Of a stretch of DNA of 35,224 bases, positions 5,880 through 18,316 are shown one piece after another. How positions within the stretch are numbered: the first letter of the stretch is position 1; each line of letters starts with the position of its first letter. The notes below the pieces were generated by a model that was not told the DNA's origin, did no database searches, and was given only the letters and a program-made list of their open reading frames with translations. This DNA comes from Methanobacteriota archaeon (GTDB lineage: Archaea; Thermoplasmatota; Poseidoniia; Poseidoniales; Thalassarchaeaceae): assembly GCA_002717835.1 (NCBI GenBank), contig PBBV01000011.1, positions 55,644-90,867 on the forward strand, in the 5' to 3' direction. The position numbers were made by a program, and so were the translations under genes.

Positions 5880-7507
5880 GTAGGAAGGACCAGATAGACT
5901 CTGAAGGAAGACGGCTGGCTACGACAGTGTGGACAGCACTCGATAGGAAAGCCGGTGCGATAATTGAACTCACAGTTAGGCAACTAAAGAACAAGACTTC
6001 TACATGGACTGTAATGGGCGTATCCGTCTTGTTGCTCACACTTCTCTCAGCATTCTACATCGATGCGGTGAGGCAGGGCTTCGAATCTATCGATAATGAC
6101 GGGGACTCTGTTGATTTCGATGGCGACGGCTATCCCCTCGGACAGGAAATGAAGTATGGCTCCAGCGATTATGACGACAGAGAATTCCCTGGAGCTGCTA
6201 TTTTCATCCCTGAAGATCAAATCAATTACTGGGGTGTTCGAACACACTCCGGAAACTACACATGGGATGTGTTTGGACCGTCTAAATTTACAGGAAATTG
6301 GGAGAACGCCGCTTACAACTTCGATGGATCCAACGATGAATGTCCTGAAATAATCGGGGAAAATCTGGAGAATACCCCCTATGGGTACAGCTCCTTCGCA
6401 TGCACTCTTGCCGATAACTCCCTCTATGTACAATTCCTGAGATTCGACGGGAATGGAACTCTGGCAGTTGCTGAGGGCTGGAATGCAGAATACGGTAGAA
6501 CAACCGAGAGCTACTACGTCCCCCCAGATCCTCCAAGCGCGTACATCGACGAAGACGGATTGGACTGGGACTCTGAAGATCCCTCTCAAAGCCAGGGATT
6601 CGATGACGACGGAGACTGTACCCAAGAGAATTACTATTTGCCTACTGGAAATCAAAATAACGATGAAAATAGAAATGGCATAGCTTGCGATGTGCAATGG
6701 ATAAGAGGTCCAGATGGCTCGGTTTTACAAATAAACAAGGATGAATTTGTTGACGAGGACCCTGTGGACTCAGAACTCCTAGGGGAATCTTCTCACAGAT
6801 CATTCATAATCGCCACAGGGAAAATTGCATTCGCTATGATTATCGGCATCTTCCTGCCGTTGTTCTTGGCGTTAGGGCTGATTCGAGATGAAAGCGAGAA
6901 TGGAACGTTACATTATTTGCTCTCAAAACCAATTCATCGTGGTGAATTCATCGTCTACAGGCTCACGGGATATCTCATATTCACTGGTGGCTTCGTGCTT
7001 GCGATGTCTTTGATCATGGCTTTAATCACCGTTACCATTGGGCCTGATGGAAATAGGTTGGGAGACATCAATGTCTGGTTTGGCATAGGCATTGTAACCG
7101 TACTCTCTCTTGCTGCTTATGGCTCAATTTTCAATGCAATGGGACTTATATCTCCAAAATATGGCGTTTATTTTGCATTGGTGTATGGCGTGTACGAGTT
7201 TGCAATGGCGGTCATGACCTTGTTCGGGGCAGACTTGGTTCCAATAATCTCAGTATCCCACTGGTCTCTCCAAATGATTGATGCGATTGTAATTCTCGCA
7301 TGGCCGGATACCATCATGCTAGCTCAGATGGCAACTGCATTCAATCTTGAAAGTGGGTTGGCATTCTTCTGGAATCCCCCTGTACACACTTTTGGGACTG
7401 GTTCATCAGCACTGGCGTTGAGTCTGAGTGTAATTGTACTTCTCGTTTTCATAACATTCCCAATACTAATCGGTCAATCCATATTCAATAGGAGGGAGAT
7501 CGATTGA
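5876..7507 (+). CDS. ABC-2 type permease with large Asp-rich extracellular domain
   Basis: 543 residues. TM1 (about 44-62, MGVSVLLLTLLSAFYI) is followed by a ~240-residue outside domain, and then by about five or six TM segments beginning IAFAMIIGIFLPLFLALGLI. The cytoplasmic loop ESENGTLHYLLSKPIHRGEF is the ABC-2 coupling motif. The ectodomain opens with DNDGDSVDFDGDG (73-85), a Ca-binding-loop-like (EF-hand or thrombospondin-3-like) run, and has further acidic stretches (DEDGLDWDSEDPS, FDDDGDCTQENYY, GIACDVQW) with a few Cys that may pair outside. Acidic Ca-binding-type repeats fit an extracytoplasmic position in seawater (inference). Overlaps both neighbours by 4 bases. Confidence 0.85.
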   Translation: MSRKDQIDSEGRRLATTVWTALDRKAGAIIELTVRQLKNKTSTWTVMGVSVLLLTLLSAFYIDAVRQGFESIDNDGDSVDFDGDGYPLGQEMKYGSSDYDDREFPGAAIFIPEDQINYWGVRTHSGNYTWDVFGPSKFTGNWENAAYNFDGSNDECPEIIGENLENTPYGYSSFACTLADNSLYVQFLRFDGNGTLAVAEGWNAEYGRTTESYYVPPDPPSAYIDEDGLDWDSEDPSQSQGFDDDGDCTQENYYLPTGNQNNDENRNGIACDVQWIRGPDGSVLQINKDEFVDEDPVDSELLGESSHRSFIIATGKIAFAMIIGIFLPLFLALGLIRDESENGTLHYLLSKPIHRGEFIVYRLTGYLIFTGGFVLAMSLIMALITVTIGPDGNRLGDINVWFGIGIVTVLSLAAYGSIFNAMGLISPKYGVYFALVYGVYEFAMAVMTLFGADLVPIISVSHWSLQMIDAIVILAWPDTIMLAQMATAFNLESGLAFFWNPPVHTFGTGSSALALSLSVIVLLVFITFPILIGQSIFNRREID

Positions 7508-13330: not shown

Positions 13331-14506
13331 ATGGGGGACGAGGGAGAGCCAATTTTCCAAATTCGGGGGGGGAATCTCGACTCAGGATTAAGAGGCGTTC
13401 CCGTTGGGACGTGCCAGACCTCATTCGTTGACCCCATGGAAGGAGTACACTATGTCGGATACCCCGTAGAAGATTTAGTCGATTTAGAGGAAGAGGACGT
13501 CATTTACCTACTCTTCAACAAGAGACTTCCCACTGAGGAGGAAAGTGAGGCATTCAGAGCGGAATTAGCCCATCGGGCAGAAAATATGCCAACTGGGGCT
13601 TTACGGGTACTTGAATCACTGACTCCAGGTTCAGGACACCCAATGGATTGGTTGTCAATTGGAATACTCGCCCTCGGCGCATCAGATACAACGGGTGATT
13701 TGCGTACCGATGCCATGAACCTCATCGCCAGGATGCCTGAATTGATGGTCAGGATATTCCTCCTGAGGGGCGGAAATGTGCAGGAAACAAGAGACTCACG
13801 ACCACAACTCGGCCTTGTGGAGAATTTTACACACATGCTTGGAGTGGATGGCGCTGAAGCAGATAGAATGAATAGAGTTTTGAGATTCTTTTTCATTCTT
13901 CACATGGACCATGGAGGTGGCAATCTCTCGACATTTTCCGGAAAAGCTGTCGCATCAGGGAGGGCTTCGATATACGCTTCTATCTCATCTGCAATGAGTG
14001 CCTTATCCGGCCCATTACACGGGAGAGCGAATCAATCATGTCTCGAATTCGTAAAGCGAATTGGGACCAGTAATGAGGAGGAGATTGAAACCTTCGTAAG
14101 GGGCGAACTTGCTGCAAAAAGACCAATCTATGGCTTCGGACACGGAGTACTTCGCGCGGAGGATCCTCGTGCAAGGTTACTAATCAAACTCGGCGAAGAG
14201 GTTTGTCCAGATGACTCTGATTTTAAAATCGTAAAAGCCCTCCGGAAGGTGGTCCCTCCAATTCTCTCAGAGATACCTAAGATATCCAACCCGTACCCCA
14301 ATGTGGACATTGCCAGTGGATCATTGCTTCAGTCTGTGGGATTCAGAAAACCAGATTACTACACGACATTCTTCGGGTGGTCCAGGATAGCGGGAATAAC
14401 CGCACAGATACTCGATGAGCGGAATGCACGAGGGGGCCGAGGAGTTCCAATCTACAGGCCCAAGTATTTGGCCGAGAATCAGCCACATAGGCGTCTTGAG
14501 TCATAG
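13331..14506 (+). CDS. gltA: Citrate synthase
   Basis: Condenses oxaloacetate and acetyl-CoA to citrate. The catalytic triad is visible as H230 (SGPLHGRANQ), H271 (GFGHGVLR) and D326 (NPYPNVDIASG), with the oxaloacetate-binding region HMDHGGGNLSTF (191-202). Several blocks (DHxGGN, SGPLHGRANQ, GHGVLRAEDPR, NPYPNVD.ASG.LLQ) look closer to the mitochondrial-type enzyme than to common bacterial or archaeal forms, by eye. The Glu usual in the HxDHE motif is Gly here. It starts 63 bases after kbl on the same strand. The stop overlaps that of the convergent phosphodiesterase. Succinyl-CoA synthetase, another TCA enzyme, is at 29220-31357. Confidence 0.93.
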   Translation: MGDEGEPIFQIRGGNLDSGLRGVPVGTCQTSFVDPMEGVHYVGYPVEDLVDLEEEDVIYLLFNKRLPTEEESEAFRAELAHRAENMPTGALRVLESLTPGSGHPMDWLSIGILALGASDTTGDLRTDAMNLIARMPELMVRIFLLRGGNVQETRDSRPQLGLVENFTHMLGVDGAEADRMNRVLRFFFILHMDHGGGNLSTFSGKAVASGRASIYASISSAMSALSGPLHGRANQSCLEFVKRIGTSNEEEIETFVRGELAAKRPIYGFGHGVLRAEDPRARLLIKLGEEVCPDDSDFKIVKALRKVVPPILSEIPKISNPYPNVDIASGSLLQSVGFRKPDYYTTFFGWSRIAGITAQILDERNARGGRGVPIYRPKYLAENQPHRRLES

Positions 14507-15559
14507 TGTCCCAGGATCCTTACCGACTCCTCTGTGACCTATCAAACGAGGCGCTTCCCAAGGAAGAGTACTTTCTGTTGTTATTATGCTCAATTCTTCG
14601 GGGGTTACACTCCATGACCAGCGCTTACGCCATTTTTGGACAACCCCTCTACGCTCACCCTGGGAAATTTCATTCCATGGCATTCTAACACCCTCAATTT
14701 CAGGCATAGTAGCGGGCCTCATGCATCTTTCTATACCATCGGGATACTTCAGATCTGAATCCATGGTGTCAGATATACACGATAGCCCAGCATCCAATAA
14801 ACGCGGCTCCACCTTCAACGGCGCAGGCCAGACATAGACTGGATGCCCTTTTCGAATCTTGTTAAAGCGCTGAAGCCCTCTTCCCCTCAACCCAACGGAC
14901 GTCCCTATCGGGACATGGCGGGTCCACCCTTCGAGATACTCCAAGGCGAGCGGAAGCATTGGCGCACCCAATTTTTTTTGTCGGGATAACATCCTCGGTA
15001 CAGATGTAGAAATAAAAGATGGGAATGCTGCAGCCCTCTGGACATTCCATCCGCCCCATTGTCTTAATTTTGGCATTAGTCTTGCATGACGATAATCCCC
15101 GGAATGGCTCCTAGCCACTTTAGTTATACATGGGTCAAATGAGTAGAAGACCGTGGACGAAATGGGAACCTCCTCTTGTTCGATCATCTCTCTAACCTTC
15201 CCCATCAGTTCACTCATATGACGCCTCATCGCATCGCCTCTAAACCATCCCCCGCCAGCTCCAGAAGATGGATGGGGCGCTTTCAATTCAAGACAGACGA
15301 ACCGACCCTCATCCACCCATCTTGATGTAAAATTCTCTCTGGACAAGAGATCCTCAAATCGATCGGAATGTTTTGAAATCTCGCTGTAATCGCTGGATTC
15401 CGGGAACAGGCCGCCCGGAGTTCGCGGGTCATGGTGGATAACTACCTCGCCATCAGCCGTCAGTCTGAGGTCCATTTCAACCCCATCTGCGTGTTCAATT
15501 CCGTAGAGTAGGGCTTCGACAGAATTTTCCCTTGGCTTCTCCCATGCCCCTCCAACCAT
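14501..15559 (-). CDS. Glycerophosphodiester phosphodiesterase (GDPD) family, apparently circularly permuted
   Basis: GDPD enzymes hydrolyse glycerophosphodiesters to glycerol-3-phosphate and an alcohol on a TIM barrel. The usual order is HRG, then PENT, then E.D, HHD and E.K. Here the 352-residue protein begins directly at the PENT region (GGAWEKPRENSVEAL). It continues with VEMDL (E28, D30), VVIHHD (H43), LELK (E91, K93), FYSFDP, VYVWPAP and CISDTMDSDL, and ends with PRLIGHRGVGKDPGTL, placing the HRG histidine at residue 342. Joining the C-terminus to the N-terminus restores a normal GDPD opening. A TAG stop two codons upstream of the ATG excludes an N-terminal extension in this frame. All catalytic residues are present. 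It converges on citrate synthase with a 6-base stop overlap. Confidence 0.8.
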   Translation of the reverse strand: MVGGAWEKPRENSVEALLYGIEHADGVEMDLRLTADGEVVIHHDPRTPGGLFPESSDYSEISKHSDRFEDLLSRENFTSRWVDEGRFVCLELKAPHPSSGAGGGWFRGDAMRRHMSELMGKVREMIEQEEVPISSTVFYSFDPCITKVARSHSGDYRHARLMPKLRQWGGWNVQRAAAFPSFISTSVPRMLSRQKKLGAPMLPLALEYLEGWTRHVPIGTSVGLRGRGLQRFNKIRKGHPVYVWPAPLKVEPRLLDAGLSCISDTMDSDLKYPDGIERCMRPATMPEIEGVRMPWNEISQGERRGVVQKWRKRWSWSVTPEELSIITTESTLPWEAPRLIGHRGVGKDPGTL

Positions 15560-15730: not shown

Positions 15731-17542
15731 ATGCAAGGAGCCACTTTAGATCGTCAATCAAACCTCGAATCAGTACGCGGTTACGCATTCTATGACTGGG
15801 GTAAATCGGCATTTGAGACATCAGTTACAACCGCGGTTCTCCCTGCCTGGTTTGCGTATCTCTTCCTGAAGGCAAATGGTCTGGAGGCTGAAATTCTTGG
15901 CCGTAACATGACTTCAGACGCAGTATGGAGCGTCGCAGTTGCGATCGGAGCACTGCTGGTTGCAATTGCTAGCCCTTCACTCGGGGTCATCGCAGATAGA
16001 CGGGCAATCAAGATGTGGTGGCTTAGAATATTGACCTATCTTGGAGCAGGATCAACCATTGCCCTCGCCTTCGCTCCAGTGTTCGATATCTCAATGCAGT
16101 GGGTTTGGATATTTGTCATGTTTCTATTGGCCAATATCGGATTGAATGGTGCAGGTGTATTCTACAATGCATTACTTCCACATATGGGTACGGACGATGA
16201 GATGGATGCAATATCCAACAAAGCGTTCGCATACGGCTATTTCGGAGGAGGCGTCTTACTGCTTATCCATCTTCTCATGATTACATTCATTGTGGATGGT
16301 GCCGGATCAAACCCTAGTTGGCTAATTCCTTTCGTAATGGCATCTTCCGGAGCGTGGTGGCTCGGATTTGCAATGTTGACTTTCAAGTATGTCCCTGAAC
16401 CAGAAATCGAAAATGAGATGGAGAGCCTTGGAATTATTCAATCAGCAAAACTTGCATTCGGGGAGTTGAAAAAGACCTTTTCAGAATGGCGGAAATTCAA
16501 GACTCTCTTCATCTATATGTTCGCTTACTTCTTGTTCATCGATGGAATAAACTCAGTAACTGCATTAGCTGGAATTTACGGCATATCTGTATTGGGGTTA
16601 ACGACCACTGCACTGATAGCTACAATATTGGTCATCCAATTTGTTGCAGCCCCATGTGCAATAGGATTTACAAAACTGGCTGAGGCAACGAGCACGAAAT
16701 CAGCATTGACAATGTCCTTGGTTGGCTGGGTCGTCGTAGTGACCGCTGCGCTCTCATTCGCTCCGTTGGAACTCTCTCAGCATTCAGAGTACGATTTCCA
16801 GTATGATTGGAATCAAGAAAATACCGAATACGACATCACAGTTGGAGATACGGCATTCGCACTCAAGCTATCCGTCGACGATTCTGAACAAGATTGGGCA
16901 GTGAAGTGGCTTAATGTCATGCCAATACACGAGGATGACAATTACGACGATCGAACGATTTACGAATTCAATAATCCCGATACTGAATCTGATGAATACA
17001 GAGGAGCATCCACTGCCGATACTCAATTAATTGAGATGTTCTTCGAGGACTTTTCAGAAACAAGGTTCAGCGCCAGTGTATCCGGTGGGCCGTTAGATGG
17101 TCGCATTGCCCTCGGAGATGAACACCCAACCAGCCTCGGAGATGGACCACTGGACGTCGTCCCAGAGACCGTCAGGGACAAACTTTGGGAGCCACTTGGA
17201 TTCGGCGTCATGTATCAATTTCTTCTGCTTGGGTGCATGGCTGGAGCCCTGCTAGGTGGTTCTCAGGGATTAGCAAGATCATTATTCGGCCAGATGGTGC
17301 CTGAAACCAGAAGTGCGGAATTCTTTGGATTCTTCGGGTTCTTCGGCAAAGTGGCCGCACTTCTCGGACCAGCGATTTATGCATTTATGACGACCATGTA
17401 CGATAGTCGCGTAGGGGTTGCTAGCCTGTGCCTGCTCATAATAGCGGGAACATTCCTGATGCGAATAGTTGATGTCGACTCAGGTAGGGAAGACGCTCGC
17501 GCAGAAGATTCGAGGAACCGAGGTATAGAAAAATCACCTTGA
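15731..17542 (+). CDS. MFS transporter, UMF1/Atg22-like, with inserted extracytoplasmic domain
   Basis: The N-terminus YAFYDWGKSAFETSVTTAVLP is the diagnostic start of the UMF1/Atg22-like family of major facilitator proteins. About eleven or twelve hydrophobic segments follow, with the MFS loop LGVIADRRAIK after TM2. The 603-residue length exceeds the usual ~430-480. The excess is an acidic soluble insert of ~130 residues (about 350-480; SVDDSEQDWAVKWL, EDDNYDDRTIYEF, SDEYRGASTADTQ) between membrane segments, probably extracytoplasmic. The late FFGFFGKVAALLGPAIYA segment is also typical of the family. Substrate unknown (fungal Atg22 exports vacuolar amino acids). The stop overlaps convergent tatC by 9 bases. 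Confidence 0.8.
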   Translation: MQGATLDRQSNLESVRGYAFYDWGKSAFETSVTTAVLPAWFAYLFLKANGLEAEILGRNMTSDAVWSVAVAIGALLVAIASPSLGVIADRRAIKMWWLRILTYLGAGSTIALAFAPVFDISMQWVWIFVMFLLANIGLNGAGVFYNALLPHMGTDDEMDAISNKAFAYGYFGGGVLLLIHLLMITFIVDGAGSNPSWLIPFVMASSGAWWLGFAMLTFKYVPEPEIENEMESLGIIQSAKLAFGELKKTFSEWRKFKTLFIYMFAYFLFIDGINSVTALAGIYGISVLGLTTTALIATILVIQFVAAPCAIGFTKLAEATSTKSALTMSLVGWVVVVTAALSFAPLELSQHSEYDFQYDWNQENTEYDITVGDTAFALKLSVDDSEQDWAVKWLNVMPIHEDDNYDDRTIYEFNNPDTESDEYRGASTADTQLIEMFFEDFSETRFSASVSGGPLDGRIALGDEHPTSLGDGPLDVVPETVRDKLWEPLGFGVMYQFLLLGCMAGALLGGSQGLARSLFGQMVPETRSAEFFGFFGFFGKVAALLGPAIYAFMTTMYDSRVGVASLCLLIIAGTFLMRIVDVDSGREDARAEDSRNRGIEKSP

Positions 17543-18316
17543 GCGACTTGTGACTCGTTCGAATATGATAGCTATCTCCAATAAGACGACTACTGGGCCT
17601 CCAACCAAAAACATGGAAAGAGGGTCAGGAGGTGAAAGAAACGCACCTACTGCCAATGCTGAGAACCATAAAAGGGATCTATTCCTGATGATTGTTTCTG
17701 GCAATATTAGATTAGATCGGATGAGCATGAAAGCAACTAGAGGGACTTGAAAGCCGATCGTCGATGCTGTAATTAAACCCAAAATGAACCCCAACCACGA
17801 GCCTATGCGCCAGGTTGCATCGAGCCCAGAGGAGGTTGAATCAGCAGCAAGGTATTCTAGAAGAAATGGAATCAATATCGAATTTGCATAAAAAAGGCCC
17901 ATCATTGCCAATGCAACTGACGATAAACATACCCCTGCAAGCCTCAGAACACTTCCATCATCAGGTGTAGTACGCTTTCCCCTGGCAATAATCTCTCTCC
18001 CGTTCAATGCAAGATCAAAAATCAATGCTAACATAGTAGCCCCTAAAGCGATGTGAACTGAAATTCTTAGCTTTAGGAGAATCAGCTCCAATGGTTGTAT
18101 GATTACTATGCTGACCCCGTCTGGACGCCATTCTGCATTATTTGCCGCCCAAGATATCATTCGCTCTGCGAGGGGGTAACCGATTAGTAGAGCTACAATA
18201 AAGAGGGCTGAGAAGCTACGGAAGCGACCTTTCAGATGCTCAATAAGGGAGCGCATCTCGGCCCGAGGAATGATGTCTGCATCTCTTGCCACATCCTCGG
18301 AAAGATATCCTGTCAT
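17534..18316 (-). CDS. tatC: Twin-arginine translocase subunit TatC
   Basis: TatC is the membrane receptor for twin-arginine signal peptides and exports folded proteins. The 260 residues contain six hydrophobic helices. Family landmarks are a cytoplasmic N-terminal EHL start, QPLELILLKLRIS before TM2, ILIPFLLEYLA in the TM3 loop, GFQVPLVAFMLI and AFLSPPDPLSMFLVGGPVVVLLEIAII. The N-terminal motif reads EHLKGRFRS instead of the usual HLxELR, so the signal-peptide-contacting Glu of that motif appears replaced. It starts 6 bases after the Drg-type GTPase gene, indicating co-transcription. No tatA is visible in the window. Confidence 0.85.
   Translation of the reverse strand: MTGYLSEDVARDADIIPRAEMRSLIEHLKGRFRSFSALFIVALLIGYPLAERMISWAANNAEWRPDGVSIVIIQPLELILLKLRISVHIALGATMLALIFDLALNGREIIARGKRTTPDDGSVLRLAGVCLSSVALAMMGLFYANSILIPFLLEYLAADSTSSGLDATWRIGSWLGFILGLITASTIGFQVPLVAFMLIRSNLILPETIIRNRSLLWFSALAVGAFLSPPDPLSMFLVGGPVVVLLEIAIIFERVTSRSR

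Follow-up and report, generated by a model that had tools for sequence, protein, structure and literature searches.

A circularly permuted GDPD barrel conserved across the Poseidoniales

Introduction

In canonical glycerophosphodiester phosphodiesterases (GDPDs) the chain runs from β1 to β8 starting at the N-terminus, with the catalytic histidine in an HRG motif on β1. One gene of the Poseidoniales (Marine Group II, MGII) departs from this layout by ending with the HRG motif, which raises the question of whether its barrel is a natural circular permutation or whether the gene is frameshifted or mis-assembled. The gene lies in a 35,224-nucleotide stretch of DNA, referred to here as the window, and a preliminary description made from the sequence alone favoured a permutation. 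Enzyme families seldom contain natural circular permutations. Where the permuted clade is well defined, its sister group is unpermuted, and the active site is intact, such a case helps in the study of how permutations arise and become fixed. MGII are abundant marine archaea whose membrane lipids are unknown (PMC6962369).

The gene and its motifs

The open reading frame (14501..15559, minus strand) has an ATG start and encodes 352 residues, with a stop codon two codons upstream. The protein begins with MVGGAWEKPRENS, followed by DGVEMD (E28, D30), HHD (H43), and LELK (E91, K93). Its N-terminal stretch MVGGAWEKPRENSVEALLYGIEHADGVEMDLRLTADGEVVIHHD corresponds to the PENT helix, ExD, and HD motifs of GDPDs without an HRG ahead of them, while the C-terminal sequence PRLIGHRGVGKDPGTL holds H342, 11 residues before the end. 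The protein is a GDPD in which the first strand of the barrel and the HRG motif are C-terminal. The preliminary description had placed the missing N-terminal HRG at H342, and this was confirmed with its residue numbering exact. It had also taken the upstream stop to rule out an N-terminal HRG in this frame, which holds, and the other upstream frames likewise lack the motif.

All the residues that mark a GDPD active site are present. The HRG of β1 is found as H342-R343-G344, albeit C-terminally, and the ExD motif, the second histidine (HD), and the E..K pair on the next strand are supplied by E28, D30, H43, E91, and K93, in the normal order that had been claimed for them. Only the order of the strands differs, running from β2 to β8 and then to β1. 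As the canonical strand order is the usual architecture but not a catalytic requirement, the protein is classed as a permuted GDPD variant.

The Pfam GDPD profile (PF03009) scores 33.6 bits against a curated cut-off of 23.6, but the match covers residues 10–46 only and enters the profile at position 9. No NCBIfam model names the protein, the best score being 12.7 against a cut-off of 450. Since profile annotation covers only a fragment of the protein (37 residues in Pfam, no NCBIfam name), lipid turnover in MGII is probably under-annotated.

On the minus strand, PRENS (residues 9–13, 15521..15535) lies at the N-terminus and by profile alignment equals the PENT segment found just after HRG in canonical GDPDs. 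DSSP on the predicted model places β2 at residues 26–33 (15461..15484), carrying the catalytic E28 and D30, and the catalytic H43 follows at 15431..15433. Model and conservation place β3 at residues 87–93 (15281..15301), with E91 and K93. The next strands are β4 (residues 136–141, TVFYSF, 15137..15154), located by profile alignment and model, and β5 (157–160, 15080..15091) and β6 (202–204, 14948..14956), both located in the model. Profile alignment and model also agree on β7 (241–245, VYVWP, 14825..14839; canonically V.VWTVN) and β8 (260–264, CISD, 14768..14782; canonically GIITD). A linker of ~72 residues with two helices (265–336, 14552..14767) then joins what would be the ancestral C- and N-termini. 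The chain ends with β1 and its HRG in PRLIGHRGVGK (337–347, 14519..14551), equal to canonical positions 2–12 and including the H342 codon at 14534-14536.

Predicted fold

The AlphaFold2 model of the window protein (pLDDT 92.2, pTM 0.91) contains eight barrel strands by DSSP, at residues 26–33, 87–92, 136–140, 157–160, 202–204, 241–243, 260–263, and 339–342, the last of which is the IGHRG strand. Local pLDDT is ~96 for residues 331–340 and 88 for residues 341–350. A distant Poseidoniaceae homologue, modelled from a smaller alignment weighted toward that family, has a pTM of 0.88 and the same layout, with its HRG strand at 371–374. Structure prediction had been proposed as a check on the permutation, and in both models the C-terminal HRG strand forms the last of the eight barrel strands. 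This placement suggests that H342 would lie near the other catalytic residues.

Foldseek searches of the PDB with the model rank GDPDs at the top (1o1z with an E-value of 7e-9, 1v8e, 1vd6, 4oec, and 7e0v); at lower ranks come lysophospholipases D, which share this fold, and a small number of other barrel proteins. Sequence identity to the solved GDPDs in these matches is 11–20%. The sequential TM-score is ~0.45 by query length, and a lowered value is expected of a permuted chain. Model and structure search together indicate an eight-stranded TIM barrel like that of solved GDPDs.

Profile test of the permutation

Using hhalign, a profile of 56 permuted proteins was compared with 19 aligned canonical GDPDs from Thermoplasmatota. 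The best match pairs residues 9–265 with canonical columns 14–251 (E-value 5.3e-18), and a second pairs residues 337–347 with canonical columns 2–12 (E-value 0.0016). Such a pair of matches, with their order swapped, is what defines a circular permutation. The second match covers 11 columns and is weak alone, but gains strength from its position, its invariance, and a rotation control. When at least 16 C-terminal residues are rotated to the front, a single alignment over columns 2–251 results and the score rises from 130.2 to 151.5. In 100 controls with the columns of the moved 20 residues shuffled, the mean was 130.6 (SD 1.3) and the maximum 137.5. Rotating other stretches gave no gain, except for those still containing the HRG strand. 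Scanning rotations with HMMER and a 19-sequence profile brought a gain of only ~0.4–1 bit, as a local HMMER alignment does not extend across the longer HRG–PENS loop. The earlier proposal that joining the C- to the N-terminus restores a canonical GDPD opening is upheld by the rotated profile, which is collinear with canonical GDPDs over their whole length.

Occurrence and conservation in Poseidoniales

The permuted gene is present in ~165 of 174 Poseidoniales genomes, spanning two families and ~20 genera; 168 genomes match at class level, and the weak matches in G017, G175, and G162 were left out of the count. The window lies on contig C11 of its genome, whose relatives are Poseidoniales metagenome-assembled genomes, and among relatives full-length homologues extend down to ~33% identity. 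HRG lies 7–19 residues from the C-terminal end in 137 of 144 loci, with none found to have it in the first 120 residues. Of the other seven loci, some hold canonical genes (L031, L032) and the rest have no complete ORF of the permuted kind. This frequency is far beyond chance, and the search for homologues with a C-terminal HRG suggested by the preliminary description finds them throughout the order.

Ten residues are invariant in all 86 distinct full-length proteins: E28, D30, H43, E91, K93, D264, H342, R343, G344, and G346. The linker between β8 and β1, by comparison, is less conserved, evolves faster than the rest of the protein, and varies from 60 to 100 residues, the shortest being that of L029 (60 residues from D264 to H342). 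Such variation in length and rapid evolution are expected of a tether.

Alternative explanations

Beyond the odd order in a single metagenome-assembled genome (MAG), nothing favours an artefact of assembly or frameshift, in which an ordinary GDPD has lost its 5' end and carries a chance HRG at its 3' end. The same order recurs in well over 100 MAGs and single-cell genomes, independent of one another and drawn from two families and ~20 genera. At 69 homologous loci none of the frames within 400 nt upstream encodes an HRG-like peptide, and the three frames of the window lack one as well, which excludes a frameshifted N-terminal HRG. Selection also extends to the last codons. Overall dN/dS against close relatives is ~0.07–0.08, and three comparisons with these relatives show 3–7 synonymous and no non-synonymous changes in the last 20 codons (residues 333–352). 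The C-terminus of the permuted GDPD is under purifying selection. Frameshift and mis-assembly were rejected because homologous loci share the order and their upstream frames lack HRG, and an artefact of this kind is extremely improbable. The two outcomes that the preliminary description had named as counting against a permutation, an orthologue with an N-terminal HRG and a frameshift, were not found. Homologues, rotation test, and predicted fold together support its central claim of a natural circular permutation of the GDPD barrel.

A genuine C-terminal strand could also complete the barrel of a second subunit in a domain-swapped dimer, a geometry that the long linker makes possible. Yet the AlphaFold2 monomer of the window protein has a high pTM and confidently forms the strand by DSSP, as does that of the distant homologue, and linker length ranges from 60 to 100 residues; such a dimer is very unlikely. 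A different activity within the GDPD fold is less remote, though still doubtful. The protein might act as a lysophospholipase D, or on another phosphodiester or a non-lipid substrate, given the low identity to solved GDPDs and the presence of lysophospholipase D enzymes among the structure matches. Its large inserts, with an invariant PHP after E91/K93 as well as W295, W316, and W334, could also reshape the pocket. Against this, the best sequence and structure matches are true GDPDs, and the protein retains the complete set of GDPD catalytic residues. A permuted, self-contained GDPD is the preferred reading.

Origin and gene order

Among 243 Thermoplasmatota genomes, no full-length match was found outside Poseidoniales. 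Matches outside the order span the first 50–100 profile positions, bar one weak match elsewhere in the profile. Marine Group III (MGIII), a sister group in the same class, and the other Thermoplasmatota examined carry ordinary full-length canonical GDPDs only. In a tree of rotated permuted and canonical GDPDs, the permuted set has a long stem of 1.96 and is monophyletic (100/100), which is most simply explained by a single permutation on the branch leading to MGII. Searches for viral and for plasmid homologues of the permuted GDPD found none. A record titled Deltaproteobacteria AH-558-G13 (L073) was considered as a lateral transfer and rejected, as its rearranged gene order equals that of the Poseidoniales locus L078. 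It is probably a mislabelled or contaminated record.

Gene order around the permuted gene is also conserved. In the window it is flanked by a convergent citrate synthase (13331..14506, plus strand) and a divergent Atg22-like MFS transporter (15731..17542, plus strand), with TatC nearby (17534..18316, minus strand). Citrate synthase adjoins the gene in convergent orientation in 77 of 80 named loci, and TatC and the Atg22-like transporter lie close to it in many. None of these neighbours was found near the canonical GDPD loci of MGIII. The permuted GDPD and citrate synthase genes of the window overlap by 6 nt at their stop codons (14501-14506). The transporter has Pfam matches at residues 14–338 and 494–586, and the stretch between them appears hydrophilic by eye. 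Genome counts, loci, synteny, selection, and monophyly show that the permutation is heritable and conserved.

Circular permutations usually arise by duplication, fusion, and truncation. No duplicated or fused GDPD intermediate was found, but the simplest route would be that an ordinary GDPD was tandemly duplicated and fused and then lost its outer ends, once, in the Poseidoniales stem. The linker may derive from the former C- and N-terminal tails of the ancestral GDPD.

Proposed mechanism and function

The gene most probably encodes a cytosolic GDPD with a (β/α)8 barrel circularly permuted by one strand, with a single origin in the Poseidoniales stem. Its proposed order is PENS loop, β2 (E28, D30), H43, β3 (E91, K93), β4–β8, helical linker, and β1 (HRG with H342 and R343). 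The C-terminal strand would close the barrel between β2 and β8 and restore the canonical metal-dependent site. There, the HRG histidine and H43 may form the acid/base pair, with E28, D30, and E91 as metal ligands and R343 and K93 holding the phosphate. The reaction would convert a glycerophosphodiester and water to glycerol phosphate and an alcohol. As its catalytic residues match those of metal-dependent GDPDs, the protein likely hydrolyses glycerophosphodiesters. Inspection of the N-terminus by eye revealed no export signal, making cytosolic recycling of lipid head-group diesters likely. It is also conceivable, speculatively, that the free C-terminal end beside the catalytic histidine might allow gating or regulation beyond that of ordinary GDPDs.

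The glycerol phosphate metabolism of the hosts bears on the fate of the product. MGII genomes are reported to lack glycerol-1-phosphate (G1P) dehydrogenase (PMC7852524, PMC6962369). In line with this, none of 30 relatives has a match to G1P dehydrogenase (Fe-ADH_2) over the cut-off, which 13 of 14 controls exceed, and 29 of the 30 have a match over the cut-off for GpsA, the glycerol-3-phosphate (G3P) dehydrogenase. From this pattern, the released glycerol phosphate most likely enters G3P metabolism, and the gene content is consistent with the use of sn-glycerol-3-phosphate.

Comparison with known systems

Canonical GDPDs (PF03009; 1O1Z, 1V8E/1VD6, 4OEC, 7E0V, 2PZ0) share the barrel fold, the catalytic residues, and, after rotation, the strand sequence with the permuted protein. 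The latter differs in its C-terminal β1 and HRG, its ~72-residue helical linker between β8 and β1, its start at the PENT loop, and inserts that lengthen it to 350–390 residues. The canonical GDPDs of MGIII and other Thermoplasmatota (for example L159–L165) belong to the same superfamily and phylum; in contrast, they have an N-terminal HRG and ~230–250 residues, lie away from citrate synthase in the loci inspected, and form a separate clade. A natural circular permutation between TIM barrels has been described for transaldolase and class I aldolase (PMC2213659). The active site is kept there as in the permuted GDPD, but that permutation lies between families, whereas the present one falls inside a single family and a single order of archaea. 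The cut directly after a catalytic strand offers a direct test of the tolerance of a TIM barrel to new termini.

The literature searched contains no description of a permuted GDPD; publications pairing 'circularly permuted' with GDPD, or with TIM barrel and phosphodiesterase, concern other topics judging by their titles, and one of them treats GDPD in the context of polymorphic toxins. It can be said with good confidence that this is the first natural permuted GDPD described, arising from a single event in the Poseidoniales stem and fixed as the usual single GDPD of hosts lacking G1P dehydrogenase.

Further GDPD-related genes in Poseidoniales

Some Poseidoniales carry other GDPD genes. L031 and L032, from genus g8 of the window's own family, encode canonical full-length GDPDs with an N-terminal HRG; genome G017 has a canonical GDPD only, and G027 has both a canonical and a permuted one. 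The canonical GDPD in this genus is probably a later lateral gain. In L132 (G047), G138, G195, G163, and others, one in-frame stop lies within or at the edge of the homologue match.

A conserved GDPD-like protein of 190–200 residues was also detected across many genomes from the family to which the window belongs, including the window's own genome (contig C6, L177:5487-6059, minus strand) and the loci L178:5841-6440 (minus strand) and L179:~5930-6506 (plus strand). It has an N-terminal GHRLGASGT followed by ENT, EFD, FHDD, and EIK, and ends before the last barrel strands. This 'half GDPD' could be a truncated GDPD or belong to one made of two subunits.
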